From: a virus
IMG/VR virus record: IMGVR_UViG_3300001848_000543
Coordinates: 1 to 35,210 of that record
Length of the DNA stretch: 35,210 nt
Direction: 5' to 3' (one strand)
Shown here: one piece after another, positions 1,656 to 26,926 of the stretch
How the letters are laid out: the number at the start of each line of letters is the position of its first letter
Numbering within the stretch: position 1 is the first letter of the stretch
Program-made: the position numbers and the translations under genes
Notes under the pieces: model-generated
What the model saw: the letters and a program-made list of their open reading frames with translations, nothing else
Database searches by the model: none
What the model was told of the DNA's origin: nothing

Positions 1656-2187
1656 TGACATTAGCGGATACGCTCATATCCTTTCCGCCCAACCCATTGG
1701 CACCGGCGACATCGCTATCTTCGGTGTTTATAACGGAAAGGGTGTTGCGGAAGCCGCCAAACGCTTTCAGCGTACAACCTACGCCTTTGATACTTTCGAG
1801 GGCCTCCCTCCCGAAGAATACATGGACATCGACTCGGACAACCCTCCAGGCAAATTCGTGCCCGAGCACAATGCTTACGAGTGGCTGCTCTATCAGCCAC
1901 TCGTAAAGCCCCTCAAAGGTCGGTTCCTTCACACCCTGCCCCTCATTCCTGCCGATACCAAATTCGGCTATGTTTACCTCGATGCAGACTACTACAAAAG
2001 CTATAAACAAGTTCTGGACTACTTGGACACCCACAACCACTGGGGTGAAAACTGCCTGATCATCACTGACGATTACTATCACCTACCGGCAGTAAAGCAA
2101 GCTATGGATGAGTGGACGGCAAAGCACGGCCTACAGTTAAAGGAGGGATGCTGGGTCCGATGGTCCTCCACGAACAAACAGGATTAA
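1645..2187 (+). CDS. TylF/MycF-like SAM-dependent methyltransferase
   Basis: The product has 180 residues. In order it shows a glycine motif GVYNGKG (27-33), FDTFEGLP (48-55), LDADYY (112-117) and DDYYHLPAV (142-150). This is the arrangement of macrocin-O-methyltransferase (TylF) proteins, whose acidic motifs bind the metal and the sugar hydroxyl. It is shorter than cellular TylF enzymes at the N terminus, a common state for phage copies. It probably O-methylates a sugar in a glycan. It overlaps the amidase by 11 nt, and its 3' end overlaps the start of the terminase nuclease part. A 13-bp perfect stem-loop lies in its middle (1875-1906). Confidence 0.87.
   Translation: MVPNDISGYAHILSAQPIGTGDIAIFGVYNGKGVAEAAKRFQRTTYAFDTFEGLPPEEYMDIDSDNPPGKFVPEHNAYEWLLYQPLVKPLKGRFLHTLPLIPADTKFGYVYLDADYYKSYKQVLDYLDTHNHWGENCLIITDDYYHLPAVKQAMDEWTAKHGLQLKEGCWVRWSSTNKQD
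1875..1906. repeat. Perfect 13-bp inverted repeat, 6-nt loop
   Basis: TTACGAGTGGCTG (1875-1887), loop CTCTAT, exact reverse complement at 1894-1906, inside the TylF-like gene. There is no U tract. Confidence 0.85.
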
Positions 2188-3050: not shown

Positions 3051-3062
3051 GTTGGAGAACAT

Positions 3063-5333: not shown

Positions 5334-5701
5334 TGAAAGGCTCAGCAGAATTTATAGCGAGGCTCCTCCATTCAGTGACTGGAGCGCATATGCTCCACTT
5401 GATGCAGAAAGGCCCAGGCAGTTATGCCGCGCATATCGCCCTTGGCGGCCTGTACGAAGGCCTCCAGCACAAGACAGATGAGCTTGCCGAGGAGTATTTT
5501 GGGGCTTACGGCTTGCTGGATACTTATCCTGACCAGGAATTCAAGACTCCGACTGACCCGCTGAAGTTTACCAAAGACCTGTATCAGTACGTGCTTGATA
5601 ACCGTGGTAAAATGGGTAAAGATACGCATATTCAGAATAGTATCGATGAGATTCTGAAGTTGCTGTCTACGACTGCTTACAAGCTAAAGTATTTGGCGTA
5701 G
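5333..5701 (+). CDS. Small helical phage protein, DUF5856-like
   Basis: The product has 122 residues, predicted almost all helical. The pattern HMLHL...YAAHIALGGLYEGLQHKTDELAEEYFGAYG followed by a C-terminal IDEILKLLSTTAYKLKYL fits a family of small phage proteins that I recall as DUF5856, with His/Glu spacing reminiscent of ferritin-like four-helix bundles. No function is established that I can state. It starts at a TAATG overlap with the portal, so it is translationally coupled to it. The family assignment is from memory of its sequence pattern, not a search. Confidence 0.65.
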   Translation: MKGSAEFIARLLHSVTGAHMLHLMQKGPGSYAAHIALGGLYEGLQHKTDELAEEYFGAYGLLDTYPDQEFKTPTDPLKFTKDLYQYVLDNRGKMGKDTHIQNSIDEILKLLSTTAYKLKYLA

Positions 5702-5712
5702 AAAGGGAGTAT

Positions 5713-6207
5713 ATGGCTAAGAAGAAACATATTGCCGATAAAGCAGGCGTTCGTGGCTTTTTCCGGCTTAACATTGTTGAGGATAAGGCCGGTAAACCGG
5801 TCATTGTGGGTGATTCGGGTTGGCTTGAGAACACGATCACGAACAACGGTAAAAACCAGATCGCGTCGGCTATCGGTGGTGTGAGCGGATCTAGCCAGAT
5901 CACTTATGCTGCTCTAGGCACGGGTACTGCTCCGGCAGCCACGGACACTTCGCTCAATGGCGAAATCACGGATGCCAGCAACGCTCGTATGGCGGTCACC
6001 CCGACTACCATCGCAACAGGCACTGTGCAGTTTGCCTTCACGTTGAACAGCGGTATTTACACTGCGGCGAAGACCATCCAGAACGTGGGTCTGTTCCAGA
6101 CGTCCACGACCAGTGCTGGTACGCTGTATGCCGGTAACACTTATGCTACGTCTCAGTTGCAGACCAACCAGAGTGTCAACGGTACTTACCAACTTCGATT
6201 CTCGTAA
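5713..6207 (+). CDS. Putative phage structural (tail or decoration) protein
   Basis: The product has 164 residues. The middle is Thr/Ala/Gly-rich and predicted beta (YAALGTGTAPAATDTSLNGE, then NVGLFQTSTTSAGTLYAG). This is typical of small fibre-associated or virion proteins whose genes often follow the portal in this phage type. The basic N terminus (AKKKHIADKAGVRGFFRLNIVED) carries a short beta-like segment. There is no enzyme motif. GAAAGGGAG at 5701 provides the ribosome-binding site. The gene ends just before the hairpin-promoter element at 6215-6251. The structural role is inferred from composition and location. Confidence 0.6.
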   Translation: MAKKKHIADKAGVRGFFRLNIVEDKAGKPVIVGDSGWLENTITNNGKNQIASAIGGVSGSSQITYAALGTGTAPAATDTSLNGEITDASNARMAVTPTTIATGTVQFAFTLNSGIYTAAKTIQNVGLFQTSTTSAGTLYAGNTYATSQLQTNQSVNGTYQLRFS

Positions 6208-6214
6208 GCCTCTA

Positions 6215-6223
6215 TGCTATAAT
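6215..6223 (+). promoter_or_regulatory. Extended -10 promoter element upstream of the methyltransferase gene
   Basis: TGCTATAAT is an exact extended -10 box (TGnTATAAT). No convincing -35 hexamer lies 16-18 nt upstream, which is usual for extended -10 promoters. The predicted start of transcription, near 6230, falls inside the hairpin at 6219-6251, giving a leader of about 20 nt before the ATG at 6250. Confidence 0.6.
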
Positions 6224-6251
6224 GAGGAGGGCCAACGGCCCTCCTCATTAT
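6219..6251 (+). repeat. Perfect 15-bp inverted repeat, 3-nt loop, overlapping -10 box and start codon
   Basis: AATGAGGAGGGCC (6221-6233), loop AAC, then the exact reverse complement (6237-6249), with two more A/T pairs at the base. The 5' arm contains GAGGAGG, a sequence like a ribosome-binding site, and the 3' arm contains its complement. In read-through RNA the stem would form and end at the ATG. No U tract follows, so it is not a classical intrinsic terminator. Confidence 0.85.
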
Positions 6252-6735
6252 GAAACAAAAGTACAAAAATATCAAGTTGGATATTGGCTGCGGCGGTAAC
6301 AAGCAGCCAGGATTTGTTGGTATGGACGTCCAAAAACTCCCTGGAGTGGACATTGTCCATGACATCGAAAAATATCCATGGCCCCTCCCCGACAATTGCG
6401 TGCAGTTGGCGATTGCCTCCCATGTAGCCGAGCACATTGAGCCCTCCCGCTTTGGCTTCATCAACTGGATGAATGAAATTTGGCGTGTGATGGAACCGGA
6501 TGGCCGCCTCATGCTGTCCCTCCCCTACGGTAACAACTCACTTTTCGTCCAAGATCCCACCCATGTAAATCCTTGTAATGAAAATACATGGAACTACTTC
6601 GACCCCCTCCATCCAAGCAACTTCTATCGGTTCTACCGGCCCAAGCCCTGGAAAATCGTTTCGTGTTTCTGGGACGCCCAAGGTTTTATGGAAGTAGTGC
6701 TTGAGAAGCGGAGGATGGATAAGAGTTATGCCTAA
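6250..6735 (+). CDS. Class I SAM-dependent methyltransferase
   Basis: The product has 161 residues. LDIGCGGNKQPGFVGMD (about 10-26) is motif I with the following acidic residue, and VQLAIASHVAEHIEP is motif II/III. W-R-V-M-EPDGRLMLSLPYG is the typical post-motif strand. It resembles the predicted methyltransferases that accompany glycosyltransferases. The substrate is unknown; a glycan or a protein is possible. It starts right after the 6219-6251 hairpin, with an extended -10 upstream, so it may begin its own transcript. It overlaps the next gene by 8 nt. Confidence 0.87.
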   Translation: MKQKYKNIKLDIGCGGNKQPGFVGMDVQKLPGVDIVHDIEKYPWPLPDNCVQLAIASHVAEHIEPSRFGFINWMNEIWRVMEPDGRLMLSLPYGNNSLFVQDPTHVNPCNENTWNYFDPLHPSNFYRFYRPKPWKIVSCFWDAQGFMEVVLEKRRMDKSYA

Positions 6736-7558
6736 AAAATCGTTAATGTCAGCCTGTCCGTTCTTGGACGTTCACCAACAAGAGTCCCTGAACCGCCTTG
6801 TCATCGGGCATCCGGTCACTGGCCTGATTCGCGTGGAATGGATGATGGCTCGAATGGGCCAGATCATCCCCACTAATTGGTCCCACATCGATCTCATGCA
6901 GTTCATGAGTCCGTACGTACCACTGAAATATCAGGTTGCAGACGCAGAAAACCTCATTGCAAAAGCGGTTGTCGAGTCTGACGCAAAGTGGTTGCTCTTT
7001 TGGGAACACGACAATGTACCTCCAAACGATGCTTTTATCAAGCTCAACGAGTACATGATTGATGAAAAGGTGCCGGTGGTCGGCGGCCTTTACTTTACCA
7101 AGAGCGTTCCACCAGAACCGATGGTGTATCGGGGCATCGGCAAAGGCTATTTTGCCGATTGGAAAATGGGTGACAAAGTCTGGTGCTCTGGCATCCCCTT
7201 CGGCTTCACCCTGATCCATGGCTCGATCATCAAAGCACTATGGAATGAGTCACCTGAATATAGTGTTAACGGTCAAATCACACGGCGGGTGTTTGAGGCA
7301 CCGCAGCAGAACTGGATGGACCCAGAAAAGGGTGTGTACATGAGTCGCTCCGGCACGTCCGACCTTGCATGGTGTCAGCGAGTCATGAAAGACCGCATTT
7401 TCGAGAAGGCTGGATGGCCGGAGTACCAAAAGAAAGAAAACCCGTTCCTGATCGACACTGGCATTTTTGTGCATCACATCGATAACAACGGTGTGAGGTG
7501 GCCGCTCGAGGTTCCGGCACGGTTTAAGCCGGATGGTAAGACAAAGGAGGTGAAATAA
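6728..7558 (+). CDS. GT-A-like glycosyltransferase family protein
   Basis: The product has 276 residues from the ATG at 6728; an upstream TTG at 6701 is less likely. The segment KWLLFWEHDNVPP (88-99) is a beta strand ending in an HDN triad, where GT-A glycosyltransferases have the metal-binding DxD. GGLYFTK and later GIPFGFTLIHGSII fit the acceptor side of that fold. A C-terminal FVHHIDNNGVRW segment completes the domain with a possible metal ligand His. It probably moves a sugar from a nucleotide-sugar to a phage or host acceptor, using products of the nucleotidyltransferase at 339. It is coupled to the methyltransferase upstream and to a zinc-ribbon gene downstream. Confidence 0.72.
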   Translation: MPKKSLMSACPFLDVHQQESLNRLVIGHPVTGLIRVEWMMARMGQIIPTNWSHIDLMQFMSPYVPLKYQVADAENLIAKAVVESDAKWLLFWEHDNVPPNDAFIKLNEYMIDEKVPVVGGLYFTKSVPPEPMVYRGIGKGYFADWKMGDKVWCSGIPFGFTLIHGSIIKALWNESPEYSVNGQITRRVFEAPQQNWMDPEKGVYMSRSGTSDLAWCQRVMKDRIFEKAGWPEYQKKENPFLIDTGIFVHHIDNNGVRWPLEVPARFKPDGKTKEVK

Positions 7559-7731
7559 TGGAAAAACATTGGGTGCAGTGTGAATGTGGCGGTGGCGCGG
7601 ATGTTGTTGTTCCTGAAGGGTCTTCCAACGGAATGGCTGAATGCGCCTGTGGTAAAATGTTGTTTTGGACGCCCGGACTCTCATTTGGGGTGACTGACTC
7701 GGTATCCACTAACGACGTTTTTGGGGGTTAG
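7558..7731 (+). CDS. 57-residue zinc-ribbon-like protein
   Basis: A short frame with a near-perfect ribosome-binding site (AAAGGAGGTGA at about 7542-7552) whose ATG overlaps the preceding stop (TAATG). The product carries CECGG near the N terminus and CACGK near the middle, a pair of CxC knuckles 20 residues apart that could bind one zinc ion. No further domain is visible. The strong translation signal suggests a real and abundant product. It may be a small virion or regulatory protein; the function is unknown. Confidence 0.7.
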   Translation: MEKHWVQCECGGGADVVVPEGSSNGMAECACGKMLFWTPGLSFGVTDSVSTNDVFGG

Positions 7732-7734
7732 TAT

Positions 7735-8547
7735 ATGGCTAGACTGGCAGATCGCGTACAAATGACAACCGCAACGACGGGAACCGGTACAATTACACTC
7801 GGTTCGGCGTCCACCGGTTACCAATCTTTTGCATCTGCCAGTATCCCCACCGGTGGTGTCATCTCCTACGGTATTGTAGACGGGTCTGCTTGGGAAACCG
7901 GCACTGGAACCTACACTTCTGTTGGCACCACCCTTAGCCGCACATTAGTCAGTTCATCAACTGGTTCACTCCTTAGCCTTAGCGGTAGTGCAATTGTATA
8001 CATCACCCCAAACTGGAAGGACATCAACACTCAGCAGCAATTTTTCTTTGGCACTTCAGGCACCACGCCTGATGCAAACATTCAAGTCGTTGCAGCAAAC
8101 ACCCTAACCTTCTCCACTGCTGGATCCGAAAGAATTCGTGTCGACTCCTCTGGCAACGTAGGTATCGGTAAAACTCCGAGTGTGTTTTTAGACGTAAACG
8201 GTGCGATTACCTCAAGTGGTGCAATTACTGATTCTACCGGCAACGTCAGAACCATTGTTCAAAACTCACAGGCTACAACTTATACTCTTGTTGCTAGTGA
8301 TTCCGGCAAACACATCTATACCGCATCTGGTGTTACGGTTCCTGCTTCTATCTTTACAGCAGGCCAAGCAATCTCGATTTACAACAATAGTGCTTCCAAC
8401 ATAACCATCACCCAAGGCACATCAGTGACTATGTATCTTGCAGGATCTGCAACAACAGGCAACCGCACCCTAGCCCAACGTGGTATTTGCACTGTTCTTT
8501 GTGTCGCTTCTAATACATTTGTTATTTCTGGCGGAGGACTCACCTAA
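7735..8547 (+). CDS. Tail fibre protein (N-terminal attachment type)
   Basis: The product has 270 residues. The N terminus (MARLADRVQMTTATTGTGTI..., then YGIVDGSAWETGTGTYTSVGTTLSRT) matches the virion-attachment domain at the start of many phage tail fibres. The centre has ERIRVDSSGNVGIG, the beta motif typical of fibre shafts. The C-terminal half is Thr/Ser-rich and beta. It probably links the virion to the glycine-rich adhesin encoded just downstream (TAATG overlap), which would contact the host receptor. Confidence 0.78.
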   Translation: MARLADRVQMTTATTGTGTITLGSASTGYQSFASASIPTGGVISYGIVDGSAWETGTGTYTSVGTTLSRTLVSSSTGSLLSLSGSAIVYITPNWKDINTQQQFFFGTSGTTPDANIQVVAANTLTFSTAGSERIRVDSSGNVGIGKTPSVFLDVNGAITSSGAITDSTGNVRTIVQNSQATTYTLVASDSGKHIYTASGVTVPASIFTAGQAISIYNNSASNITITQGTSVTMYLAGSATTGNRTLAQRGICTVLCVASNTFVISGGGLT

Positions 8548-9506
8548 TGTCCATCCAACAAATGCTTTTTGCTACTTCCGCAAAAACTTGTTATTGTGGT
8601 ACATACCTCATTGTTGCTGGGGGCGGTGGTGGTGGTAGCTCTACTGGTGGAGCTGGTGGTGGCGCAGGTGGTGGTTATAGGGCTAGTACACAAAATTTCA
8701 AAAAGGGTACAGTTTATACTGTAACAGTTGGTGGTGGCGGCGCAGGTGGTAATAATAATTCAGGCTGTAATGGATCATGCAGTTCAGTAACTAGCATAGT
8801 TACCTCCACCGGAGGAGGTGGTGGTGGTGGTGGCTGCACGCTTTCGTCATCTACTGGGAAAAATGGTGGTTCCGGTGGTGGCAGCAATGGTAAACTCTTT
8901 AACTACTGTTGTTATTTTCATGCAGCACCTGCGGGATCTGGTACAAGTGGTCAAGGTAATTCCGGCGGTATTGGTAATTACTTTAATGCAATTGGAAGTC
9001 CAGCTACTCCTCGCTATGTTGGAGGTGGTGGTGGCGGTGCAGGTGCAGTAGGTCAAAATGCCTATTCAGCATATTGTGGTTGTCTATTAAACGCATATGC
9101 TGGCAACGGTGGTTGTGGCAGTTCTAGTTCTATTACCGGATCTTCTGTCACATATGCTGCTGGCGGCGGCGGCGGTGCATGTACTACCATTAGTTCTACT
9201 CATGTCGGAACTGGTGGAGCTGGTGGTGGCGGAAACGGAGCTAAAGGAAATTTTTGTTATTATTGTTCTTGCATTGCTCAGTATATATATTCTTATGCCG
9301 GGTCTGGAACTGCTAATTCCGGCGGTGGGGGTGGTGGTTTTGGTAATACTATATCCGGTCACTCAGGAGCTGGTGGTTCTGGTGTAGTAATTCTCAGAGT
9401 TCCAACTGCAAATTACACCGGAACAACAACAGGATCACCAACAGTAACAACCTCTGGTTCTTGTACAATCATTAAATTTACTGGTTCAGGGAGTTACACA
9501 GGATAA
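8547..9506 (+). CDS. Glycine-rich putative tail adhesin
   Basis: The product has 319 residues with long runs of Gly broken by short beta-like segments. LIVAGGGGGG near the start and SGVVILRVP...FTGSGSYTG at the end are the hallmarks of the glycine-rich domain seen in phage tail tip proteins. The glycine runs could pack as polyglycine-II, as in the gp38-type adhesins of T4-like phages. Unusually, Cys-rich aromatic segments recur between the glycine runs (CYCG, NYCCYF, YCGCL, CYYCSC). It is encoded right after the fibre and overlaps it, fitting a distal receptor-binding role. The role is inferred from composition and context. Confidence 0.75.
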   Translation: MSIQQMLFATSAKTCYCGTYLIVAGGGGGGSSTGGAGGGAGGGYRASTQNFKKGTVYTVTVGGGGAGGNNNSGCNGSCSSVTSIVTSTGGGGGGGGCTLSSSTGKNGGSGGGSNGKLFNYCCYFHAAPAGSGTSGQGNSGGIGNYFNAIGSPATPRYVGGGGGGAGAVGQNAYSAYCGCLLNAYAGNGGCGSSSSITGSSVTYAAGGGGGACTTISSTHVGTGGAGGGGNGAKGNFCYYCSCIAQYIYSYAGSGTANSGGGGGGFGNTISGHSGAGGSGVVILRVPTANYTGTTTGSPTVTTSGSCTIIKFTGSGSYTG

Positions 9507-9997
9507 TGGCACACTTTGCAAAGTTAGATGAAACCAATCAGGTCACTGAAGTCGTTGTAGTAAGCAACGATATTTTACAAAACCTTCCTTTTCCAGATAG
9601 TGAACCCATAGGTGTTGCATTCCTCCAATCTCTTTTTGGTCCAGGAGTTTGGAAACAAACTTCCTACAACAACAATTTTCGTGGAAAGTATGCTGGTCTA
9701 AGTATGACCTACGACACTGAAATTGACATTTTTATAGGACCAAAACCCTTTCCCTCATGGGTGCTGAACAAGCAAACAGCAGACTGGAACGCACCAGTTT
9801 CAAAGCCAGATGGAAAGAGCTATACTTGGAACGAAGGAACTGGATCTTGGGATTATGTGCCACCTCCGCCTGCACCATTTCCAAGTTGGAAGTTAGACGA
9901 GAATGACATTTGGCAGCCGCCAGTTCCAAGACCGACTGACGGTCAAAAGTATAGGTGGGATGAAGCAACTCAAACATGGATAGTAAGGACGGTATGA
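9506..9997 (+). CDS. Tail-associated protein with two FPSW...W repeats
   Basis: The product has 163 residues. The N-terminal MAHFAKLDETNQVTEVVVVSND resembles a domain common at the start of small fibre-linked proteins of marine phages. Two copies of a Trp/Pro-rich unit follow, at 81-115 and 124-158, each reading FPSWxL...W..P...P.DG..Y.W.E.T..W. It lies in the fibre block at a TAATG junction. A fibre-associated role is inferred; I know of no defined biochemical function. Confidence 0.68.
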   Translation: MAHFAKLDETNQVTEVVVVSNDILQNLPFPDSEPIGVAFLQSLFGPGVWKQTSYNNNFRGKYAGLSMTYDTEIDIFIGPKPFPSWVLNKQTADWNAPVSKPDGKSYTWNEGTGSWDYVPPPPAPFPSWKLDENDIWQPPVPRPTDGQKYRWDEATQTWIVRTV

Positions 9998-10608
9998 CAA
10001 AGATAGAATTGCATGAGGAGATACTTTTTCCGAGTGCAGTGTACTTCTGTGATTTTAGTCACCATCTAGCGGCAGTGAAGGCAGTTAGTAATACTGCTTT
10101 GGCTGATGCAAAGAAGAAGAACGGTGATAACGGTGTTTTGACCATGAGCGAGGATTTCACGGCTAGTCCAAAGCTCGATCAATTTCGGACTGAGTTGGCA
10201 GACATCTTTAGCAATGTACTGACAGGTCAAGGCTACCAGCCAAACTCGATCCAGTTCAATGCAATGTGGACTCAGGAGCACAAATTCATGAGTTCCATGG
10301 AACAGCACGTGCATGGTGGATTTCAAGTTGTTGCTTTTTACTGTTTGGACGTTCCTGACGATTCCTCTAGGCTCATTTTTCATGACCCTCGGCCTGCAAA
10401 GGTTCAAGTGAATCTACCAGAGCGAGATATGTCTGTGGCCTCAATTGCCAGCCAATCCATCAATTATAAGCTGGTTCCTGGCAGACTGTTTATTGCTTCT
10501 AGTTGGCTGCCTCATAGCTTCACCCGAAACATGAGTAAGAAGCCGGTAAGATTTGTACACATCAATGCTTCGGTTGGTGTGTGTAACAGCAATGTGGAAG
10601 TGGTATGA
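9994..10608 (+). CDS. 2OG-Fe(II) oxygenase-like protein
   Basis: The product has 204 residues from the ATG at 9994, which overlaps the upstream stop (ATGA) and has AAGGA 5 nt before it. The double-stranded beta-helix signature is visible: MEQHVHGGFQVVAFY (H105, H107), then RLIFHDPRP (D131), PGRLFIASSWLPHSF (H174) and a following R186 that can hold 2-oxoglutarate. This order matches the putative 2OG-Fe(II) oxygenases common in aquatic phages. Such enzymes hydroxylate proteins, nucleotides or small molecules; the target is unknown. Its place in the fibre block raises the possibility that a virion protein is the target, but this is only inference. Confidence 0.78.
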   Translation: MTKIELHEEILFPSAVYFCDFSHHLAAVKAVSNTALADAKKKNGDNGVLTMSEDFTASPKLDQFRTELADIFSNVLTGQGYQPNSIQFNAMWTQEHKFMSSMEQHVHGGFQVVAFYCLDVPDDSSRLIFHDPRPAKVQVNLPERDMSVASIASQSINYKLVPGRLFIASSWLPHSFTRNMSKKPVRFVHINASVGVCNSNVEVV

Positions 10609-10835
10609 GGTATCTTATAAGGTTTAACAAGCACAGGGGAAAGCCTGGGAGGGGTTCCTCAGAGCATGTTTGGCGAGTTTTTGAGGGTACAAAAGAGTAC
10701 ATTGTAAAGCACGTTCGGATTGAGGTTCCTTGTTGGGATGAAACTACTGGTGAAGACGGTGGAGACAACTTTAACATTTGTTGTGAAGGAACCTTGCAGT
10801 TAGATAGGGAGAACAGTATAGCCAAGATATGCTAG
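10605..10835 (+). CDS. Conserved-type small phage protein, function unknown
   Basis: The product has 76 residues, joined to the oxygenase by an ATGA overlap. The pattern RGKPGRGSSEHVWRVFEG...KEYIVKHVRIEVPCW is one I associate with small hypothetical proteins of cyanophage-like genomes. There are two adjacent Cys (ICCEG) near the C terminus. No domain function is known to me. Tight coupling to the oxygenase and to the repeat protein downstream supports it being real. Confidence 0.65.
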   Translation: MRYLIRFNKHRGKPGRGSSEHVWRVFEGTKEYIVKHVRIEVPCWDETTGEDGGDNFNICCEGTLQLDRENSIAKIC

Positions 10836-12229
10836 GGTTATATCCACTTGCGGCTAAACCTCTTGCTGCCATAGGCAATGGCGTAACTGTCACTTTTTCT
10901 GTTAATGACAGCAGCACTGTAAGTGAATCTGTAACGGAATCGGTTAAGGTCACACCTAGTGTTTCAGACTCTAGCACCGGTTCTGAATCTACAGCCCTTA
11001 CCGAACTAACCAATCTAACCGTCAATGACAGTTCAACCACCACTGAATCTGTCACCCTAGCCGAATCTGCAATTAAGGCATCCGTCAGTGATAGTTCCAC
11101 TATCACTGACTCAACGACTCTAACCGTAGCGGCGCCTGTTTCAGTCAGCGACTCCAGCACAATTACCGAGTCCACGACCCTTACCGAATCTGCAATTCAG
11201 GTAAACTCAAACGTCAATGACTCCAGCACAGTCACTGAATTTGTTTCCCAGTCAGTAACCGCTCCTGTCTCTGTCAGTGATTCAATTACTATTACCGAAT
11301 CAGTGACCCTTGTTGAGTCTGCAATTCAGGCTAATGTCAGTGACAGCAGCACAATTACTGAATCTACAACCTTACAGCCTACAGTCTCGATAAGTGTAAG
11401 CGACAGTAGCACCACTTCTGAATTTACACAAGCTCAAGTTATTAGTTATGGCATACAGTTATCTACTTACGACAATGTAAGTATTACTGAGTCTACCGCC
11501 TCTGTCAGCAACACTAATCTTTCGATTAGTGACAGCTCCACTGTCACTGAATCTACGACTCTTTCCTTTAATCCTGCTTTATCAGTTAGTGACTCTAGTA
11601 CTGTTACTGAATCTAGTGCGGTCAGACCGACCCTGTCTGTTTCGGTCAATGATTCTAGCACGATTACTGAGTCCATAAATGACTATGAGGGTGAAGCCCT
11701 CATAGTCAGTGACTCCAGTACTGTTTCTGATTACTCAAAGCTGGCATTTAATCTGGTCATCAATGTCAGTGACAGTTCGACTGTTTCTGAAAATAACGCT
11801 TTTACCACAGTTTGTTTGGTTTCAGTCAATGACGGTTCTTCAGTTAGTGATACTGCCAACATTGCCGCTCTATACAACTTAGCGGTCAGTGACTCTAGCA
11901 CAGTGAGTGAGTTTGAATCTTTAGCTTCAAACTCACTCATCTCACTATACGATACTGTTAGCGTTTCTGAGTATCAGAAAACAACCTCGATTGCCAGATT
12001 CCTGGTTTCTGACACTAGCACAATCTCTGACTTCATCCGAATCAAGGAACGCATCACCACTGCGCCCTACAAAACCTTTAAGGTTGTGGTTGACAACAAG
12101 GTCTTTAATGTGGCGTATGCCGGTAGAAATTATAGAGTTACCTCTGATAATAAGATCTTTTATGTGGGTACAGACAAGCGCACATTCAAGGTGGTTCCAG
12201 CTCCAACCACAGTTACCCCATTTAGATAA
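10829..12229 (+). CDS. Virion repeat protein with about 19 SDSST-type repeats
   Basis: The product has 466 residues. After an N-terminal MLGLYPLAAKPLAA segment, about 19 copies of a unit of roughly 20 residues run from about residue 24 to 410. Each has a core [SN]-D-S-S-T-[VIT]-[ST]-E-[SF] followed by a hydrophobic beta-like stretch. The C-terminal 60 residues (FKVVVDNKVFNVAY...KIFYV...RTFKVV) are a separate beta domain. The codons of the repeats differ widely while the amino acids are kept, so selection acts on the protein. Regular acidic Asp/Glu positions could bind calcium. It is probably an elongated fibre or decoration protein. It contains two perfect stem-loops (11680-11708 and 11904-11939). 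Confidence 0.78.
   Translation: MLGLYPLAAKPLAAIGNGVTVTFSVNDSSTVSESVTESVKVTPSVSDSSTGSESTALTELTNLTVNDSSTTTESVTLAESAIKASVSDSSTITDSTTLTVAAPVSVSDSSTITESTTLTESAIQVNSNVNDSSTVTEFVSQSVTAPVSVSDSITITESVTLVESAIQANVSDSSTITESTTLQPTVSISVSDSSTTSEFTQAQVISYGIQLSTYDNVSITESTASVSNTNLSISDSSTVTESTTLSFNPALSVSDSSTVTESSAVRPTLSVSVNDSSTITESINDYEGEALIVSDSSTVSDYSKLAFNLVINVSDSSTVSENNAFTTVCLVSVNDGSSVSDTANIAALYNLAVSDSSTVSEFESLASNSLISLYDTVSVSEYQKTTSIARFLVSDTSTISDFIRIKERITTAPYKTFKVVVDNKVFNVAYAGRNYRVTSDNKIFYVGTDKRTFKVVPAPTTVTPFR
11680..11708. repeat. Perfect 12-bp inverted repeat, 5-nt loop
   Basis: TGACTATGAGGG (11680-11691), loop TGAAG, exact reverse complement at 11697-11708, inside the SDSST repeat gene. Confidence 0.85.
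11904..11939. repeat. Perfect 14-bp inverted repeat, 8-nt loop
   Basis: TGAGTGAGTTTGAA (11904-11917), loop TCTTTAGC, exact reverse complement at 11926-11939, in the SDSST repeat gene. Confidence 0.85.
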
Positions 12230-12234
12230 GTTTA

Positions 12235-12243
12235 TGTTATAAT
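12235..12243 (+). promoter_or_regulatory. Extended -10 promoter predicting a leaderless mRNA for the 12250 gene
   Basis: TGTTATAAT is an exact extended -10 box lying in the 20-nt gap between two genes. Only 6 nt separate it from the ATG at 12250, so transcription would start at or within a base or two of the start codon. There is no ribosome-binding site in the gap. Confidence 0.65.
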
Positions 12244-12249
12244 AGGCAC

Positions 12250-12525
12250 ATGGCGACTTTTTACGCTACCAAAGATCCGAATTCTGACCTGGATTATGCC
12301 ATCAACTGGGGTGACTGGTTGGTCGGCACTGACACCATTTCTACCAGCACTTGGACTGGCCCAACAGACCTTACCATTTATGGCGACAGCCATGGAACCG
12401 CAACAACCACAACCTGGATTTCAGGTGGTACTTCCGGCGAAGTGTATACGGTAACCAATAGGGTTCAAACTGCGGCTGGTCGGATTGACGAGCGTAGCAT
12501 TGAGTTTACCATGGTGGACAAGTAA
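12250..12525 (+). CDS. Phage fibre-tail adaptor-like small structural protein
   Basis: The product has 91 residues with an Ig-like beta pattern: AINWGDWLVGTDTISTSTW, then ISGGTSGEVYTVTNRVQTAAGR and a closing SIEFTMVDK. This matches a family of about 90-residue phage proteins I recall as fibre-tail adaptors, encoded near head or fibre genes. There is no ribosome-binding site; the ATG is 6 nt from an extended -10 box, so translation is probably from a leaderless mRNA. It ends in TAATG with the next gene. Confidence 0.7.
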   Translation: MATFYATKDPNSDLDYAINWGDWLVGTDTISTSTWTGPTDLTIYGDSHGTATTTTWISGGTSGEVYTVTNRVQTAAGRIDERSIEFTMVDK

Positions 12526-12818
12526 TGGATGAGAAGCAGTATTTGAAGGCTGCTCAGGGTATCGACACTCAAGACCTCCTTAATCATATCGCGTGGACGG
12601 ACGTTGTCCGTCCACGCTTAGATGAAGCAAAGGCGGCCCTGACCAAACGGCTGGTTGAGGCTACATTGAAACCCCTGGACCCCCGTGAAGAGAGTCGGGA
12701 ACAGCTTGCCGGTAAGCTTTGGGGTATCGACTTTGTGATTACCACGCTAGAGCGTATTTTAAGGGAGGGTGCCAATGCGAAAGATTTCCTTGCTCGCCAA
12801 AACATTTTTATTCAGTAG
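12525..12818 (+). CDS. Small helical phage protein, function unknown
   Basis: The product has 97 residues, predicted alpha-helical and charged (RPRLDEAKAALTKRLVEATL...LAGKLWGIDFVITTLERIL). The composition is like that of small head-completion or chaperone-like proteins, but I recognise no family. It is coupled by TAATG to the adaptor-like gene and overlaps the next gene by 44 nt. A perfect 12-bp stem-loop with a 3-nt loop lies in its first third (12591-12617). Confidence 0.65.
   Translation: MDEKQYLKAAQGIDTQDLLNHIAWTDVVRPRLDEAKAALTKRLVEATLKPLDPREESREQLAGKLWGIDFVITTLERILREGANAKDFLARQNIFIQ
12591..12617. repeat. Perfect 12-bp inverted repeat, 3-nt loop
   Basis: GCGTGGACGGAC (12591-12602), loop GTT, exact reverse complement at 12606-12617, inside the 97-residue gene. 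Confidence 0.85.
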
Positions 12819-13446
12819 TTTAGCCTTTGGTCAAACCATACAAACTGTTCAAACTCAGCCCGCCTATGGTTCTGCCTGTCCTTCCGCACCCAACATCCAG
12901 TACAATGACCTGACCGGCCACCTGTACGTTTGTATGAGGCCGCTTGGCTGGAACCCCCTCCTTGCTACTACCGATTACCTGTTCAGTCAGACCAACAGCG
13001 TTACTGTCGTCAACAGCACTGCCGAAACTAGCATTTTGGGCACTGGGGACGGTACAGCTACCATCCCAGCCAACTTCTTTGCGGTAGGCCGGATTATCCG
13101 AGTGCGTGTTTATGGTTACCATTCCGCTACTGCCAACCCGAACATAACGATTAAGGTCAAAATCAATGGTACCACAATCCTGAACACTGGCGCATACCCA
13201 AGTCACACTGCAACAACTGAAGGGTTTACGATAGAAGCATTTTTGACATGTCGGACTACCGGCACGTCAGGAACCTTTATTGGGCAAGGCTTTTATCAGG
13301 AGTCTGGCAGTACGCCAGTGTCAGTGGTTATGACAGCTGCCCAGACAGTGGACACAACTAAGGCTTTGCCGATTGATGTGACTGTTCAGTGGGACACAGC
13401 ATCGGTAAACGACAGTATTACTTCGACTAACGCTGTTATCTACTAA
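12775..13446 (+). CDS. Putative virion beta-protein with an N-terminal Sec signal peptide
   Basis: The product has 223 residues from the ATG at 12775, chosen because AAGGGAGG ends 6 nt before it; a GTG at 12769 is also open. The first 19 residues form a classical signal peptide: basic MRK, hydrophobic LLAKTFLFSSLA, likely cleavage in AFG|QT. There is no lipobox Cys. The mature part has ILGTGDGTATIPANFFAVGRIIRV and a long beta-rich domain that I associate with phage tail or appendage proteins. An export signal on a structural-type protein is odd. It may be displayed or secreted from the infected cell, or borrowed from a host gene. The structural assignment is from pattern memory only. Confidence 0.65.
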   Translation: MRKISLLAKTFLFSSLAFGQTIQTVQTQPAYGSACPSAPNIQYNDLTGHLYVCMRPLGWNPLLATTDYLFSQTNSVTVVNSTAETSILGTGDGTATIPANFFAVGRIIRVRVYGYHSATANPNITIKVKINGTTILNTGAYPSHTATTEGFTIEAFLTCRTTGTSGTFIGQGFYQESGSTPVSVVMTAAQTVDTTKALPIDVTVQWDTASVNDSITSTNAVIY

Positions 13447-13466
13447 CAGCAAACTAAAGAAAGGTG

Positions 13467-13475
13467 TGTTAAGAT
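13467..13475 (+). promoter_or_regulatory. Extended -10 promoter predicting a leaderless mRNA for the scaffold gene
   Basis: TGTTAAGAT fits TGnTAnnAT and ends 6 nt before the ATG at 13482, the same geometry as at 12235 and 17785. The nearest purine-rich site (AAAGGTG at about 13460) is about 16 nt from the ATG, too far for normal initiation, so a leaderless transcript is plausible. Confidence 0.55.
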
Positions 13476-13481
13476 TACTTC

Positions 13482-14315
13482 ATGGACGAGCAGAATCAAT
13501 TAGTTGAACAGGTCGATCCGAGAGCGCCGTCCGCGCCTCCGGCTGGCAATCCTAGCCGTGATGCCGTGATCGACAAATATCAGCAGCTTTATGGTCAAGA
13601 GCCGCAGGCAGAGCCTGTTGTTCCGGTAACGCCTCAGGTGGCTGAACCGGTGCAGGCGGCAGAACAACCGTCAGCCCAGGACCAGTTGCTGATGCAGATG
13701 GCTGAGGAGCTGAGGGCTCTGAAGCAGCAGGTTGTGACTCAGAATCAGCCTGCGCCTGTCGAACAGTCAGATTGGCTGAAGTTGCTGGCCGACGGTAAGA
13801 AGGCCGAAGGTGAAAAGGCCATGGCGGATTTGATCCGTCAGCAATTGAATTTAAATGAAATTCAGGATCAGGCTGTCAATCAGGCTGTGGCGGTTCTAGA
13901 CGCCAAGCAGCAGATTGATAGCTTTATTAACCAAGTACGGACAGCGCCTGAGAACGCTGACGTGCTGGTTATGGAACCGTATATTACTGCGGCTGTGGCC
14001 CGTCGTTATGACGAGGCTATGGCAGGCGGTAAGATTAAAACTCCCGCTGACTCCGTAGCAGTCTACAAACAGGCAGTCAATGCCGAACTCGAAACCGCCC
14101 GAAATCTTGCTCTGTCACTCCGGGGCGCAGGCAAAAACGAAGCACAAACCCGCACTCAGCAGGTGATGGCTTCACAAGTTATTCGTCCGAATGCGGTCAA
14201 CCTCCAAAGGGAAGCACCAACGGCATCACCTGAACCTCAGGTCGATCCGACGACGGCTTACCTCCAGGAACGGATGGCACGGCAAGCTCGGATGCATGGC
14301 TTGACCACAGCGTAA
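13482..14315 (+). CDS. Capsid scaffolding protein
   Basis: The product has 277 residues, Gln/Ala/Glu-rich and highly helical, and lies immediately before the major capsid gene. The N-terminal 70 residues are Pro/Gln/Val low complexity. Residues about 70-160 form a coiled coil (LLMQMAEELRALKQQVV and following). The C terminus is basic (QERMARQARMHGLTTA), as in scaffolds whose end contacts the capsid protein. Scaffolds direct prohead assembly and are then lost. Composition, position and the basic tail make this the standard reading, though no catalytic or family motif is diagnostic. Confidence 0.85.
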   Translation: MDEQNQLVEQVDPRAPSAPPAGNPSRDAVIDKYQQLYGQEPQAEPVVPVTPQVAEPVQAAEQPSAQDQLLMQMAEELRALKQQVVTQNQPAPVEQSDWLKLLADGKKAEGEKAMADLIRQQLNLNEIQDQAVNQAVAVLDAKQQIDSFINQVRTAPENADVLVMEPYITAAVARRYDEAMAGGKIKTPADSVAVYKQAVNAELETARNLALSLRGAGKNEAQTRTQQVMASQVIRPNAVNLQREAPTASPEPQVDPTTAYLQERMARQARMHGLTTA

Positions 14316-14347
14316 GCTGTGTAAATCTAAAGTAAAGAGGACAATCT

Positions 14348-15298
14348 ATGCCAGGACAAGTATATTCAGTCTCCAGTCTCGGCGGAGTGATGTCTCAGCC
14401 GTACCTCTCGCAGAAGTTGCGAGCGGTGGCTCAGCCTTTGTTTCGATTTCGTCAGTTTGTAGACGCAAAGGAAGCAATCGGAAAGAACCGTGGTGATACG
14501 TTCCTATTCGACAAGATGCAGAACGTGCAGACCCAGGGTGGTGTTCTGATTGAAACTAACACGATTCCTGAAACGCAGTTTGTTACGAATCAGGGTACTT
14601 GTGTTATTACTGAGTACGGCAACGCCATTCCGTTTACCCAGAAGCTCGAAAACATGGCTCAGTTCCAGTTGGAACCGGCCACCGAACAACGTCTTCGTGA
14701 CGATATGGTGAAGGTGCTCGAATCCGCTTGCGGTACCAAGTACATCAACACCGAATTTATTGCGGTTTGCTCCGCGACGAACTCGGTTGTGATTACGACC
14801 AACGGTACTGCGACGGCGACGGCCACTGCCAATCTCACGGCCAGCAATACCCGCGACATTGTGAACTTCATGACGAAGAAACTCATTCCGAAATATGATG
14901 GTCGCAACTATGTGTGTATTGCCGGTGTCACTGCCCTTAGCGGTATGCACGCTGATACTGCTGCGGGTGGCTGGCAGGACATTAGCAAGTACACTGTGAC
15001 GTTTGCTCCGAATATCTTTGCTGGTGAAGTTGGCGAATTCTACAAAACTCGTTTTGTGGAAGAAACCGGCTTCTTGAGCAATTCCATCGGCTCTGGCTCG
15101 AACTACGGTCAGGCGGTGTTTTTCGGCGCGGATCAGGTGTATGAAGCGATTGCCGTGCCGGAAGAAATCCGCGTTAAGATCCCTCTCGACTACGGTCGTG
15201 ATATGGGTCTTGCGTGGTATGCGTTGCTTGGTTTCCAGACGGTTTGGAACTACAACGTCGACACCGAACAGCACTTGGTTTACGTAACGTCTGCTTAA
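14348..15298 (+). CDS. Major capsid protein (N4 gp56-like, HK97 fold)
   Basis: The product has 316 residues. LSQKLRAVAQPLFRFRQFVDAKEAIGKNRGDTFLFDKM near the N terminus is the pattern of N4-gp56-family capsid proteins, followed by an E-loop-like QTQGGVLIETNTIPETQF, P-domain helices (ATEQRLRDDMVKVLESACG) and a closing beta strand (IPLDYGRDMGLAWYALLGFQTVW). AGAGGA 7 nt before the ATG is a good ribosome-binding site, as expected for the most abundant virion protein. It lies between the scaffold and a decoration-like gene. It assembles the icosahedral shell. Confidence 0.92.
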   Translation: MPGQVYSVSSLGGVMSQPYLSQKLRAVAQPLFRFRQFVDAKEAIGKNRGDTFLFDKMQNVQTQGGVLIETNTIPETQFVTNQGTCVITEYGNAIPFTQKLENMAQFQLEPATEQRLRDDMVKVLESACGTKYINTEFIAVCSATNSVVITTNGTATATATANLTASNTRDIVNFMTKKLIPKYDGRNYVCIAGVTALSGMHADTAAGGWQDISKYTVTFAPNIFAGEVGEFYKTRFVEETGFLSNSIGSGSNYGQAVFFGADQVYEAIAVPEEIRVKIPLDYGRDMGLAWYALLGFQTVWNYNVDTEQHLVYVTSA

Positions 15299-15308
15299 GG
15301 AGGACAAC

Positions 15309-15809
15309 ATGGGATATTCTGACCAGAAGTATTATGATCGCAAGCAAATTCCGATGTCCGACCCGGTGGCGTTTACGGGAACCTTCACGGCAAGTGCAGC
15401 TACGAACTCTGTAGCGGCGTCTGCCTACCGTATTCCCACTTTCGCTCGCAAGACTAAAGTGAACGGCATCAAAATGGTGGTTCGTACTGCCAGCACAACT
15501 GGACAGCAAACTTTCTCGTTTGTGAACGGTACGAATACTTTTGCAACCGCAACTAATTCTAGCACGAATGCTGCGGGTGCGGAACTCACCGCTACACTCA
15601 CCAACACCGCTTCTACTGCGGTTACGACTCAGACGACTACCTACGCGAACGGCGGCACGGCTGTCAGCACGGTCACTACGACCACTGACTGGTCTGTGTT
15701 TGCCGCCGGTACGGGTATCCAGGTTATTGTTCAGGGAACGGCGACGGCCTCTGGCAATACTTGGGGTGCGTTTGATCTCGAACCCGAAGTCCAGGAAGCG
15801 TTTGTCTAA
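15309..15809 (+). CDS. Putative capsid decoration or head fibre protein
   Basis: The product has 166 residues. A short N-terminal segment (MGYSDQKYYDRKQIP) precedes a Thr/Ala/Asn-rich beta domain (ATNSSTNAAGAELTATLTN and similar). It has a strong AAGGAGG site and directly follows the capsid gene, the usual place for head decoration or stabilising proteins. There is no enzyme motif. The decoration role rests on position and composition. Confidence 0.72.
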   Translation: MGYSDQKYYDRKQIPMSDPVAFTGTFTASAATNSVAASAYRIPTFARKTKVNGIKMVVRTASTTGQQTFSFVNGTNTFATATNSSTNAAGAELTATLTNTASTAVTTQTTTYANGGTAVSTVTTTTDWSVFAAGTGIQVIVQGTATASGNTWGAFDLEPEVQEAFV

Positions 15810-15812
15810 ATA

Positions 15813-15852
15813 CATGGGGAGGAAGGGGCTTGACAGCCCCTTCCTCCCCATG
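15813..15852 (+). repeat. Perfect 18-bp inverted repeat with 4-nt loop carrying a TTGACA -35 box
   Basis: The arms 15813-15830 and 15835-15852 are exact reverse complements, rich in GGGGAGGAAGGGG and its complement, with the loop TGAC. TTGACA, a consensus -35, spans the tip (15830-15835). No U tract follows on either strand, so termination would not be classical. It separates the capsid operon from the zinc-finger gene. Confidence 0.9.
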
Positions 15853-15859
15853 ATAGAAT
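15830..15859 (+). promoter_or_regulatory. Complete promoter (TTGACA-N18-TAGAAT with TGn) for the zinc-finger gene
   Basis: TTGACA at 15830-15835, an 18-nt spacer, then TAGAAT at 15854-15859 preceded by TGA, an extended -10. The ATG at 15868 is 8 nt past the -10 box, so the transcript would be leaderless or have one or two leader bases. This is the best promoter in the window. Confidence 0.78.
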
Positions 15860-15867
15860 AGGGGTTT

Positions 15868-16329
15868 ATGCCTGCTACCGCCGAAGCTGCGAATGCTTCA
15901 AAGAAAACCTACACCAATTGGGAAGCCTTTGCTAAGGCTGGCCTGATTCCTGCTACTCTCCGTTGCCAGTCCTACAAGCCGGTTCACCTTTCTGATAGCT
16001 CTTGTCATAGCAACTTGAAGTTCGATGCTGCTACGCTCAAGCGTCATTTCGATGGGGAACACGGTGGCGGGTTCTGGGTTGACGTGCGTAAGACCGAAGG
16101 TAAGCCGCATCCGCTTTGGGCGGAATTGGCTGCCAGCGGTCTAGAAGCCCACGATTTACGTTGTGACATCTGTGATGCTCAGATTCGGTGGTCGCCAAAC
16201 AGTATTATGGCCCACATGAAAGCGCATTCAGGCAAGACACGCCGGGTTTATCCCGGTGGCAAATTCAATTTCACGATTGGATACGGCCAGCCTGACCGCG
16301 AAGACTCTGACGTCGAAGATGCAGCCTGA
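15868..16329 (+). CDS. Protein with two internally duplicated C2H2-type zinc-finger modules
   Basis: The product has 153 residues. The second module has a textbook C2H2 pattern: C99-x2-C102-x13-H116-x3-H120 (RCDICDAQIRWSPNSIMAHM). The first is a variant: C33-x12-C46-x13-H60-x4-H65. Each is preceded by a matching helix, W-E-x-F-A-K-A-G-L ... L-R-C (18-33) and W-A-E-L-A-A-S-G-L ... L-R-C (84-99), so the protein is a tandem duplication of about 66 residues. It may bind DNA, RNA or protein; a transcription or packaging regulator is possible. It has its own strong promoter and no ribosome-binding site, and overlaps the next gene by 11 nt. Confidence 0.78.
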   Translation: MPATAEAANASKKTYTNWEAFAKAGLIPATLRCQSYKPVHLSDSSCHSNLKFDAATLKRHFDGEHGGGFWVDVRKTEGKPHPLWAELAASGLEAHDLRCDICDAQIRWSPNSIMAHMKAHSGKTRRVYPGGKFNFTIGYGQPDREDSDVEDAA

Positions 16330-17779
16330 AGTCGTTAAGTCTAAGTGGGTCCGCTATCGGGCAGCCTCGGCTTTATCTGGCCGAGGCTTGTCCTTTGGTT
16401 GCGGCCACGATCCGATTGTCCCCAAACAAGCCTTAGACGACGGTAAGTACTGCATCAACATGGACGTCATGAAGACGCCCAATGTTGATATCTGTGGTAC
16501 TGACTCAAGTGTCATCCAAAACCGAAGTTTGGACTTTGTGTTTGTGGGTGCCCGCGACAACGCTCCCCTCCGTGACCTAATCCAGAAACTTCGCCTGTAC
16601 GGTCACCTTGTCATCCACCAAAACTCCACAGACCTTGAGGCAGTGCGTGCCTCGATCACTCACCTCGGAAAATGGCAAGAGAAGGACACTTACGTCCGAG
16701 ACGGCCAGACCTTAGGCATTTGGAAGCTGATCGGGTTTGAGCAGCAAGGCATTCTTCCTCCTAAGCCCAAATCGGAAAAACGTGCATGCATTGCCCGATA
16801 CGGCGCAATTGGCGATATGATCATGATTTCGCCTATTATTCGCCTCCTTTCCGAACAAGGCTATGCAGTCACCCTGAATGTCACCCCTTACTGTGCGGAA
16901 GTCCTAAAGCACAACCCCTACATCTCTAACATCATCATTCAAGAACGGGATATGATCCCGAACCCTGAGCTTGGTGAATATTGGAAGGAGTGGATGGGTG
17001 ACTATGATAAGTACATCAATCTGTCCGAGTCTATTGAAGGCAAGCTGCTTCGGGTGGAAGGCCGGAACGACTTTTACACGAGCAAGGCTTGGCGAAGCAC
17101 GGACGTAAATTACTTTGACCAAACAGCCAGACTCTCTGGCTTCCCTGACGCCGTTGGCCTCAGGGGTGAGATCTACTTCAGCAAGGCTGAAGAACGGGAA
17201 GCACAGCTTTGGCGCAAAGCCCAAAAGGACGTGTTCACCATTCTTTGGGCACTCAAAGGCTCGAGCTACCACAAGATTTACCCGCTACTTGAACCGTGCC
17301 TTGTGGAGTGGCTTGAGAAGCACCCTGATGCTCAGGCCGCTCTGGTCGGTAGTTCTGGTGACGCCAACCTCCAGTTTGAGCACCCTCAAGTCCTGAATCT
17401 AGCGGGTGTGGCAAGCATTCGGCAGGTGTTTTGCCTGACCAAATACGTGGATTGTGTGGTTGGTCCTGAGTCCAGTGTGATCAATGCGGCTGGCTGTTTT
17501 GACACACCTAAAATCGCACTGCTGAGCCATAGCAATTGGAACAACTTGTGCAAGTACTGGGTGAATGATCATAGCTTAGCGCCTGAAAACATTGCCTGTT
17601 ATCCTTGCCATCAACTTCACTACACGCTCGATTCTTGCCCAACGGTGGATATGGTGGATCAGGACACACAGCAGGTGGCTTGGGCTGGACCGGTTTGTGC
17701 GGCTTACGGTGTTACCCCTGAGCGGATACACCAAAAGCTAGACCTGATATATCAGGAGTGGAAGAGCAAGCGAATCTAG
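16319..17779 (+). CDS. Fusion of methyltransferase-like domain and GT9 (heptosyltransferase-like) glycosyltransferase
   Basis: The product has 486 residues from the ATG at 16319; an upstream GTG at 16256 would add 21 residues. Residues 20-140 have a Rossmann methyltransferase outline: LSFGCGHDP (24-32) as motif I, YCINMDV, LDFVFVGARD and HLVIHQNS. The acidic and catalytic parts look weak, so it may bind rather than modify. Residues 155-486 are GT-B: ARYGAIGDMIMISPIIRLL (160-178) matches the GT9 N-terminal loop that contacts the acceptor, and VVGPESSVINAAGCF (about 380-394) matches the sugar-nucleotide-binding region. It probably adds a sugar to a glycan. It is coupled to the zinc-finger gene. 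Confidence 0.8.
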   Translation: MQPEVVKSKWVRYRAASALSGRGLSFGCGHDPIVPKQALDDGKYCINMDVMKTPNVDICGTDSSVIQNRSLDFVFVGARDNAPLRDLIQKLRLYGHLVIHQNSTDLEAVRASITHLGKWQEKDTYVRDGQTLGIWKLIGFEQQGILPPKPKSEKRACIARYGAIGDMIMISPIIRLLSEQGYAVTLNVTPYCAEVLKHNPYISNIIIQERDMIPNPELGEYWKEWMGDYDKYINLSESIEGKLLRVEGRNDFYTSKAWRSTDVNYFDQTARLSGFPDAVGLRGEIYFSKAEEREAQLWRKAQKDVFTILWALKGSSYHKIYPLLEPCLVEWLEKHPDAQAALVGSSGDANLQFEHPQVLNLAGVASIRQVFCLTKYVDCVVGPESSVINAAGCFDTPKIALLSHSNWNNLCKYWVNDHSLAPENIACYPCHQLHYTLDSCPTVDMVDQDTQQVAWAGPVCAAYGVTPERIHQKLDLIYQEWKSKRI

Positions 17780-17784
17780 GCGTT

Positions 17785-17793
17785 TGATATAAT
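17785..17793 (+). promoter_or_regulatory. Extended -10 promoter predicting a leaderless mRNA for the adaptor gene
   Basis: TGATATAAT is an exact extended -10 box in the 21-nt gap after the GT9 fusion. It ends 7 nt before the ATG at 17801. There is no proper ribosome-binding site; an AGGG lies 3 nt from the ATG. No good -35 is seen. Confidence 0.65.
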
Positions 17794-17800
17794 AGGGTTT

Positions 17801-18550
17801 ATGAGCCTTGCTGCCCGTTGGACCCTAAATCAAATCCGATCCGCAGTGCGCCGTGAACTCCTCGACCCCACTGGTAAGTGGTGGAGTAACGACGAACTCA
17901 ACCAGTACATCAACGACTGGCAGCAAAACCTTCAAAATCAGTTTGAGTTTGTTTGGGAAACCTCAACCCTTACCTTTACTGATACCACAACCACCTTCAA
18001 CATTTCAACTGTAACTCCAGGTGCGATGCGCTTGGACGCTGTTTACTACTGTGCTGGTGGCACAGACACCTCTACAGGCCGCCTTTCCCCTCGCTCCCCC
18101 GCAGACCTTGACACCATGCAGCGTGACTGGCGTGGTACGGCCGCCGCCGCTGGCATCGACCCTGTCATCGTTTACCAGAACAACGCCCAGACAGTCAGTT
18201 TTTGGCCGCCTCCCGCTGGCACTGGCACTGTTTACTTTGAATATCCAGTGCTTTGCACGATGACCACGACTGTGTCTAGCGGGACATTCGTGGACGGAAC
18301 CATGGCAATTCCGGCGTGGACCCGCTACAGCGCGATTCCTTACTGCCGGTACAGGGCCTACAGCCGGTTTGGACCGAACCAGGACATCAACAAGGCTGCT
18401 CGAGCGCGGAAGTCGTGGGACCGTCAGAAGAAACTTATTCGCCGGTTCTGGGACGGCTACTTCCCTGACAAATCCGAAATGCTACGTCCAGGCCGCAAGT
18501 GGGCCGGACAAGTCCTTCGCACCAAACCAGCTTGGCCTATTTGGAGGTAA
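17801..18550 (+). CDS. Head-tail adaptor-like protein (SU10-adaptor type)
   Basis: The product has 249 residues. The N-terminal helices (LNQIRSAVRRELLDPTGKWWSNDELNQYINDWQQNL) followed by a beta sandwich and C-terminal helices (DINKAARARKSWDRQKKLIRRF) match the phage adaptor family I know from the podovirus SU10, which docks under the portal. A second protein of the same general plan is encoded at 19109. Two adaptor-type proteins are unusual but not unheard of; one may be a second connector ring. It starts with a leaderless-type promoter. Confidence 0.72.
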   Translation: MSLAARWTLNQIRSAVRRELLDPTGKWWSNDELNQYINDWQQNLQNQFEFVWETSTLTFTDTTTTFNISTVTPGAMRLDAVYYCAGGTDTSTGRLSPRSPADLDTMQRDWRGTAAAAGIDPVIVYQNNAQTVSFWPPPAGTGTVYFEYPVLCTMTTTVSSGTFVDGTMAIPAWTRYSAIPYCRYRAYSRFGPNQDINKAARARKSWDRQKKLIRRFWDGYFPDKSEMLRPGRKWAGQVLRTKPAWPIWR

Positions 18551-26917: not shown

Positions 26918-26926
26918 TGGTATAAT
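26918..26926 (+). promoter_or_regulatory. Extended -10-like sequence overlapping the acetyltransferase start
   Basis: TGGTATAAT is an exact extended -10, but it overlaps the ATG at 26925, so a transcript from it would start inside the gene and lack the start codon. GGAG at 26910-26913 gives the gene an ordinary, if distant, ribosome-binding site. It may be chance, or the true start may be later. Confidence 0.3.

Follow-up and report, generated by a model that had tools for sequence, protein, structure and literature searches.

The window analysed here, that is, the whole 35,210-base virus record IMGVR_UViG_3300001848_000543 (positions 1 to 35,210), encodes terminase, portal, head, adaptor, and tail proteins, and no tRNA genes were found in it. 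Five of its start codons are closely preceded by an extended -10 box (TGN-TANNNT), with the TGN element present in 5 of 5 boxes (Table 1). A preliminary description had reported four of these, and all four were confirmed with the gaps to the ATG that are tabulated; the fifth, on the minus strand, had not been listed there. The same box sites are present, in identical form, in contig L002.

Table 1. Extended -10 boxes of the window and the features associated with them (gap, nucleotides between box and ATG)
Feature	Position	Strand	Remarks
Extended -10 box TGCTATAAT	6215..6223	+	26 nt before ATG 6250
Extended -10 box TGTTATAAT	12235..12243	+	Gap 6 to ATG 12250
Gene	12250-12525		Pfam Gp77 fiber-tail adaptor domain
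Extended -10 box TGTTAAGAT	13467..13475	+	Gap 6 to ATG 13482
Strong hairpin	15813..15852	+	-39.4 kcal/mol, z -6.8; after gene 15309-15809; no T-run
-35 hexamer TTGACA	15830..15835	+	18-nt spacer to -10 hexamer at 15854 (TAGAAT)
Extended -10 box TGATAGAAT	15851..15859	+	Gap 8 to ATG 15868
Extended -10 box TGATATAAT	17785..17793	+	Gap 7 to ATG 17801 (SU10-adaptor family protein)
Extended -10 box TGATATAAT	32527-32519	-	Gap 6 to ATG 32512 (DUF5658 protein)

The poorest match among the boxes is TGTTAAGAT, which has two mismatches to TATAAT; the gene that it precedes lies immediately 5' of the major head protein gene and, by this position, probably encodes the scaffold. The box before 32512 is located in the last codons, at the 3' end, of an upstream ORF (32509-32937) and is therefore weaker evidence; here the reading frames share an ATGA overlap, and coupling, with the box in coding DNA, could be enough without a promoter. 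At the other four box-led starts, the upstream ORFs end 20-58 nt 5' of the start. The best -35 match is 2-3 of 6 positions for four boxes and 6 of 6 (TTGACA) for the box at 15868, where the hexamer sits in a hairpin loop region. The strong hairpin at this site may be a terminator or an mRNA 3' end. The proposal that the boxes divide the late genes into units was not borne out, as a strong hairpin precedes only 15868 and carries no run of T.

Directly 3' of the box before 6250 lies a hairpin rich in GC (6224-6246; -20.5 kcal/mol), and this box is probably the same kind of promoter in a leadered form. The stretch from 6215 to 6252 reads TATAATGAGGAGGGCC-AAC-GGCCCTCCTCATTATG, a perfect inverted repeat in which one arm holds most of the -10 and the other arm the bases preceding the ATG. 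A 5'-hairpin as a general rule after extended -10 boxes was considered and rejected: folds of -12 kcal/mol or better were present at 13% of 68 intergenic sites vs 9% of 1040 random positions, and the median fold was weaker than random. A tRNA-Thr(TGT) gene occurs in the related contigs L061, L075, L094, and L095, and in L094 it lies shortly after an extended -10 box. Elsewhere in the window, TGGTATAAT at 26918-26926 overlaps the start codon of an acetyltransferase-like gene at 26925 (TATAATG) and is therefore no ordinary promoter for that start, and a 466-aa ORF at 10829-12229 consists in part of many copies of a short Ser/Thr-rich unit.

Placement of the boxes in the window and in related contigs

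A total of 47 hand-picked starts in the window were scored with a -10 weight matrix taken from general knowledge rather than derived with a tool, and with a cut-off at the genome-wide top 0.2%. The motif was not equally common at random positions, a possibility that the preliminary description had itself raised: a score above the cut-off at gap 5-8 was found at 5 of the 47 starts, compared with 4 of the 1108 remaining ATGs of the window (Fisher p = 1e-5). When the sequence upstream of each start was shuffled with its dinucleotides retained (2000 runs), 0.11 such starts arose on average and never more than 2, against the 5 observed. Further, the gaps of the extended motif across the 47 starts are bunched (6, 6, 6, 7, 8, 26, and 48), with none at 9-14. 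Placement of the boxes by chance is excluded.

Related phage contigs were collected with five scans of viral_contigs using head and portal proteins (singly and as profiles) and one using the 17801 protein, which together returned 97 locus identifiers, many of them overlapping. Any stretch that matched a longer locus at 88% identity or more was removed from the pool; in other pooling steps, seven loci representing the virus of the window or its overlaps were removed, as were nine loci and the first 2500 bases of L004. Among the contigs recovered, one matches the window exactly over 4348-25295, another does so over 4461-10217, and a third reaches 99.7% identity over 1096-5906. The final pool comprised 65 non-redundant segments from 64 loci (659,246 bases), including the window and one contig from a metagenome-assembled genome (MAG), with 884 genes by automatic calling. 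Within it, extended -10 sites were located, allowing up to one mismatch, and their distance to an ATG able to open a called gene was recorded.

The motif search in the genome and its relatives, proposed in the preliminary description, again gave a peak at gap 5-8. A total of 222 extended -10 sites were present in the pool; 0, 14, 15, 19, and 15 of these fell at gaps 0-4, 5-8, 9-14, 15-30, and 31-60, respectively, whereas 39 letter-permuted motifs gave means of 1.4, 1.1, 1.4, 4.3, and 7.4 in the same bins and never exceeded 3 at gap 5-8. With the window left out, 11 extended sites remained at gap 5-8; the window adds three rather than five because the gene caller omits 15868 and the box at 13482 has two mismatches. 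Hexamers without TGN (1839 + 485 sites) yielded 12 sites at gap 5-8 vs 179 at 9-60, which is no peak, and the spacing peak thus depends on the TGN element. Additionally, 68 of 221 extended sites were intergenic, where 15.3 were expected. It should be noted that, across the family, gaps of 9-14 are as enriched as gaps of 5-8 (15 and 14 sites).

Four E. coli and Vibrio phages with head proteins 35-38% identical served as a comparison. Of the boxes within 60 nt of a start, 14 of 63 in the family vs 1 of 15 in these phages were at gap 5-8 (p = 0.16), and 29 of 63 vs 2 of 15 were at gap 5-14 (p = 0.018); Streptomyces phage BRock was not used, having only 1 site within 60 nt. This contrast is modest and agrees with a difference in host.

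Ribosome-binding sites and orthologous genes

The preliminary description held that the box-led genes lack a good ribosome-binding site. This is so for the five as a group, with a median anti-Shine-Dalgarno (SD) pairing energy of -3.7 vs -7.0 for the 42 other starts (p = 0.007), and family-wide, genes with a close box likewise have weaker SD sites (p = 0.002). It is arguable for 15868, which carries an AGGGG (-5.9 kcal/mol) directly 3' of its -10 box; with 3 nt between the end of this AGGGG and the ATG, it would be mostly or wholly missing from an mRNA begun at the ATG. The companion claim, that neighbouring genes have clear sites, is right for 15309 (-12.1) and 18553 (-10.6), both clearly SD-led, whereas the third gene named as SD-led, 14348, reaches only -5.8, similar to box-led 15868.

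The gene at 17801 has an extended -10 box at gap 5-8 in 6 of 17 orthologs (the window, L004, L027, L052, L061, and L091, the last with a GTG start), and these include proteins with as little as 27% (L027) and 31% (L052) identity to that of the window; two further orthologs have boxes at gaps 13 and 15, and 9 of 17 are without a box within 44 nt. For 12250, the count at gap 5-8 is 2 of 3; the ortholog in L003/L089 carries TGATATAAT at gap 5, and that in L009 has no box. For 13482, none of 16 orthologs has a one-mismatch box at gap 5-8, while in 5 of them the gap is 12-30; boxes with two mismatches are present in the window (gap 6) and in L009 (gap 8), TGTTAATAT is found at gap 8 in L004 and L009, and TGCTATATT is found at gap 30 in L003 and L089. 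For 15868, the single ortholog of 26 with a box at gap 5-8 is the window itself. Portal orthologs have such a box in 1 of 34 cases and 9 more at gaps 9-44. In portal orthologs of L010, L063, L090, L091, and L099, an extended -10 lies 10-13 nt before the start and the SD is weak or absent; boxes so placed predict leaders of a few nucleotides.

Seven neighbouring control genes, which closely follow other genes and so have less room for promoters, had a box at gap 5-8 in 0 of 134 cases and 1 at a longer gap. With the rows of the window set aside, the four genes of the preliminary description had a box at gap 5-8 in 6 of 58 cases vs 0 of 127 for the controls (p = 8e-4), and any box within 44 nt in 15 of 58 vs 1 of 127 (p = 8e-8). 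By these counts, the putative promoters recur at the four genes, and their distance to the ATG has changed often.

At 15868, the orthologs in L003 and L004 are preceded by TTGACA, a similar spacer, and TATAAT or TACAAT, after which come a hairpin at the 5' side and a leader, approximately 110 nt or longer, whose last elements are a small conserved hairpin and then an SD. These structured leaders (~110-130 nt) lie at L003:11502-11635 and L004:2608-2735, and their conserved 3' part reads GCCCCGCAA..CGCAACCCG..TTGGAGA; between the two contigs, the last small stem differs by one change on both sides. Rfam at gathering scores had no match in the window, L003, L004, L009, L010, or L011, and a single sub-threshold match was in L004. 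The simplest account of these sequences is that the leader was lost at 15868 in the lineage of the window, or gained in others.

Promoters, leaders, and alternative explanations

The boxes behave as extended -10 promoters: their placement is not random and depends on the TGN element, they lie preferentially in intergenic DNA, and diverged relatives have them again at orthologous genes. At the level of sequence statistics, their placement, TGN dependence, and recurrence, as well as the weaker SD sites of the genes they precede, are established, and from this we infer that the boxes act as promoters, where exactly the 5' ends lie, and how the mRNAs are translated. The explanation considered best, with a probability of roughly 80%, is that extended -10 promoters of the main sigma factor of the host give leaderless or near-leaderless mRNAs at these genes. 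Transcription from sigma-70 promoters starts approximately 7 nt after the -10 hexamer. A start 7 nt past the box would coincide with the A of the ATG at gap 6 or fall 1-2 nt earlier at gaps 7 and 8. The sigma factor would be the housekeeping factor of the host, of the sigma-70/sigma-A class, and translation of the mRNAs would fall to ribosomes able to recognise an AUG at the 5' terminus. The boxes would then open short transcription units inside the structural region, while the head protein gene at 14348 and other SD-led neighbours would be read from the promoter upstream of them. At 15868, the promoter may once have had a leader that was later lost, as relatives have a TTGACA/-10 pair with a long SD leader.

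The claim that transcription starts at the start codon itself is suited by the spacing in the window; it does not hold strictly, given the equal enrichment of gaps 9-14 and the ~110-nt leaders of L003 and L004. Real extended -10 promoters could instead yield leaders of ~2-8 nt or serve as minor internal starts, with translation, through coupling or standby binding, coming mostly from mRNA that reads through from upstream. This accords with the gaps of 9-14 in the family, with the gathering of portal orthologs at gaps 10-13, and with upstream ORFs that end 20-58 nt from four starts and overlap 32512. However, the extended-motif gaps of the window are 6, 6, 6, 7, and 8, with none at 9-14, and with weak SD sites a read-through mRNA would be poorly translated, and this reading is judged unlikely. 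A phage factor, either a sigma-4 remodeller like gp39 of P23-45 or a phage sigma, might move the polymerase to promoters without a -35 late in infection, a reading compatible with leaderless expression from host extended -10 promoters, to which it adds a switch. That 4 of 5 boxes lack a -35 would fit, as would the account in PMC7403470 that gp39 of P23-45 leaves middle and late promoters of the extended -10 type unaffected; yet no such gene was present among the scanned proteins of the window, although the region is mostly structural, and the box at 15868 has a consensus -35, so that the added switch seems improbable. That the boxes are a coincidence, being TATAAT-like strings from AT-rich gene junctions, is very improbable, for despite the poor match of TGTTAAGAT and the position of one box of five in coding sequence, such boxes are far fewer in shuffles, at other ATGs, and for permuted motifs, the equally AT-rich non-extended TATAAT gives no peak, and the box returns before gene 17801 in contigs that have diverged.

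As this case illustrates, likely leaderless expression can be read from sequence alone in viruses that have never been grown, and it offers a clue to the translation habits of the host. Orthologous genes here alternate between leadered and leaderless-type states, such that the gain and loss of leaders may be traceable. A more far-reaching picture, offered tentatively and as a whole rather unlikely, is that a widespread uncultivated family shuttles individual structural genes between SD-led leadered and leaderless expression by sliding an extended -10 as far as the start codon, that the head-tail adaptor gene 17801 is long-standing in its leaderless state, and that a phage factor favouring both promoters without a -35 and 5'-AUG initiation sets the timing.

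Host signals and known systems

A search of genome_contigs with a portal pattern found no relative, and a profile of 15 head proteins matched a single contig there (L029), which belongs to a MAG titled Thaumarchaeota. This contig encodes homologs of eleven genes of the phage and has a run of structural genes of the family, with a head protein that is 70% identical; it is probably phage DNA in the bin and was not taken as evidence on the host. A total of 44 of 49 adaptor homologs are from phages of Mycobacterium, Gordonia, or Rhodococcus and 4 are from Microcystis phages, whereas head-protein homologs are from Vibrio, Escherichia, and Streptomyces phages. Because these homologs point to contradictory hosts, no host is claimed.

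The proposed mechanism, an uncommon route of gene expression, has close prior art in Deinococcus-Thermus, in actinobacteria, and in phages of Thermus; a literature search, which was not by family name, found no report on this phage family. In Lactococcus cremoris, leader lengths are bimodal, with none found between 4 and 14 nt (PMC10986495); unlike there, gaps of 9-14 in the phage family would give such short leaders. A study of AR9 notes that transcripts of phages are often leaderless (PMC5312081). In TA-led leaderless bacterial genes, a TANNNT-type signal approximately 12 bp before the start codon replaces the SD (Zheng et al. 2011, PMC3160421), with the full TAtaaT form in medium-GC groups (PMC3160421). 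The phage resembles these in having a -10-like signal approximately 12 bp upstream of the start more often than by chance, and differs in that the TGN extension is needed for the spacing peak and in that it is an uncultivated phage with no host assigned.

Among Thermus phages, most middle and late mRNAs of phiYS40 are leaderless (PMC3594737), and P23-45 transcribes middle and late genes from extended -10 promoters (PMC7403470). The likeness lies in later phage genes with leaderless mRNA (phiYS40) or an extended -10 (P23-45), here predicted from sequence. Unlike in those phages, the structural genes are a mixture of SD-led and leaderless-type ones, with no sign of a Thermus host; where most middle and late genes would be leaderless, a close box precedes 5 of 47 starts in the window, and the head protein gene and most others look SD-led. 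In Deinococcus-Thermus, a -10 motif lies approximately 6-7 bp before the ORF, mostly with no -35, and gives leaderless mRNA, and its promoter function was shown with reporters (PMC12340547). A minority of the genes of the present phage use the box, and its host phylum is not assigned, unlike in that case; in both, however, the box adjoins the ORF and the -35 is mostly missing.
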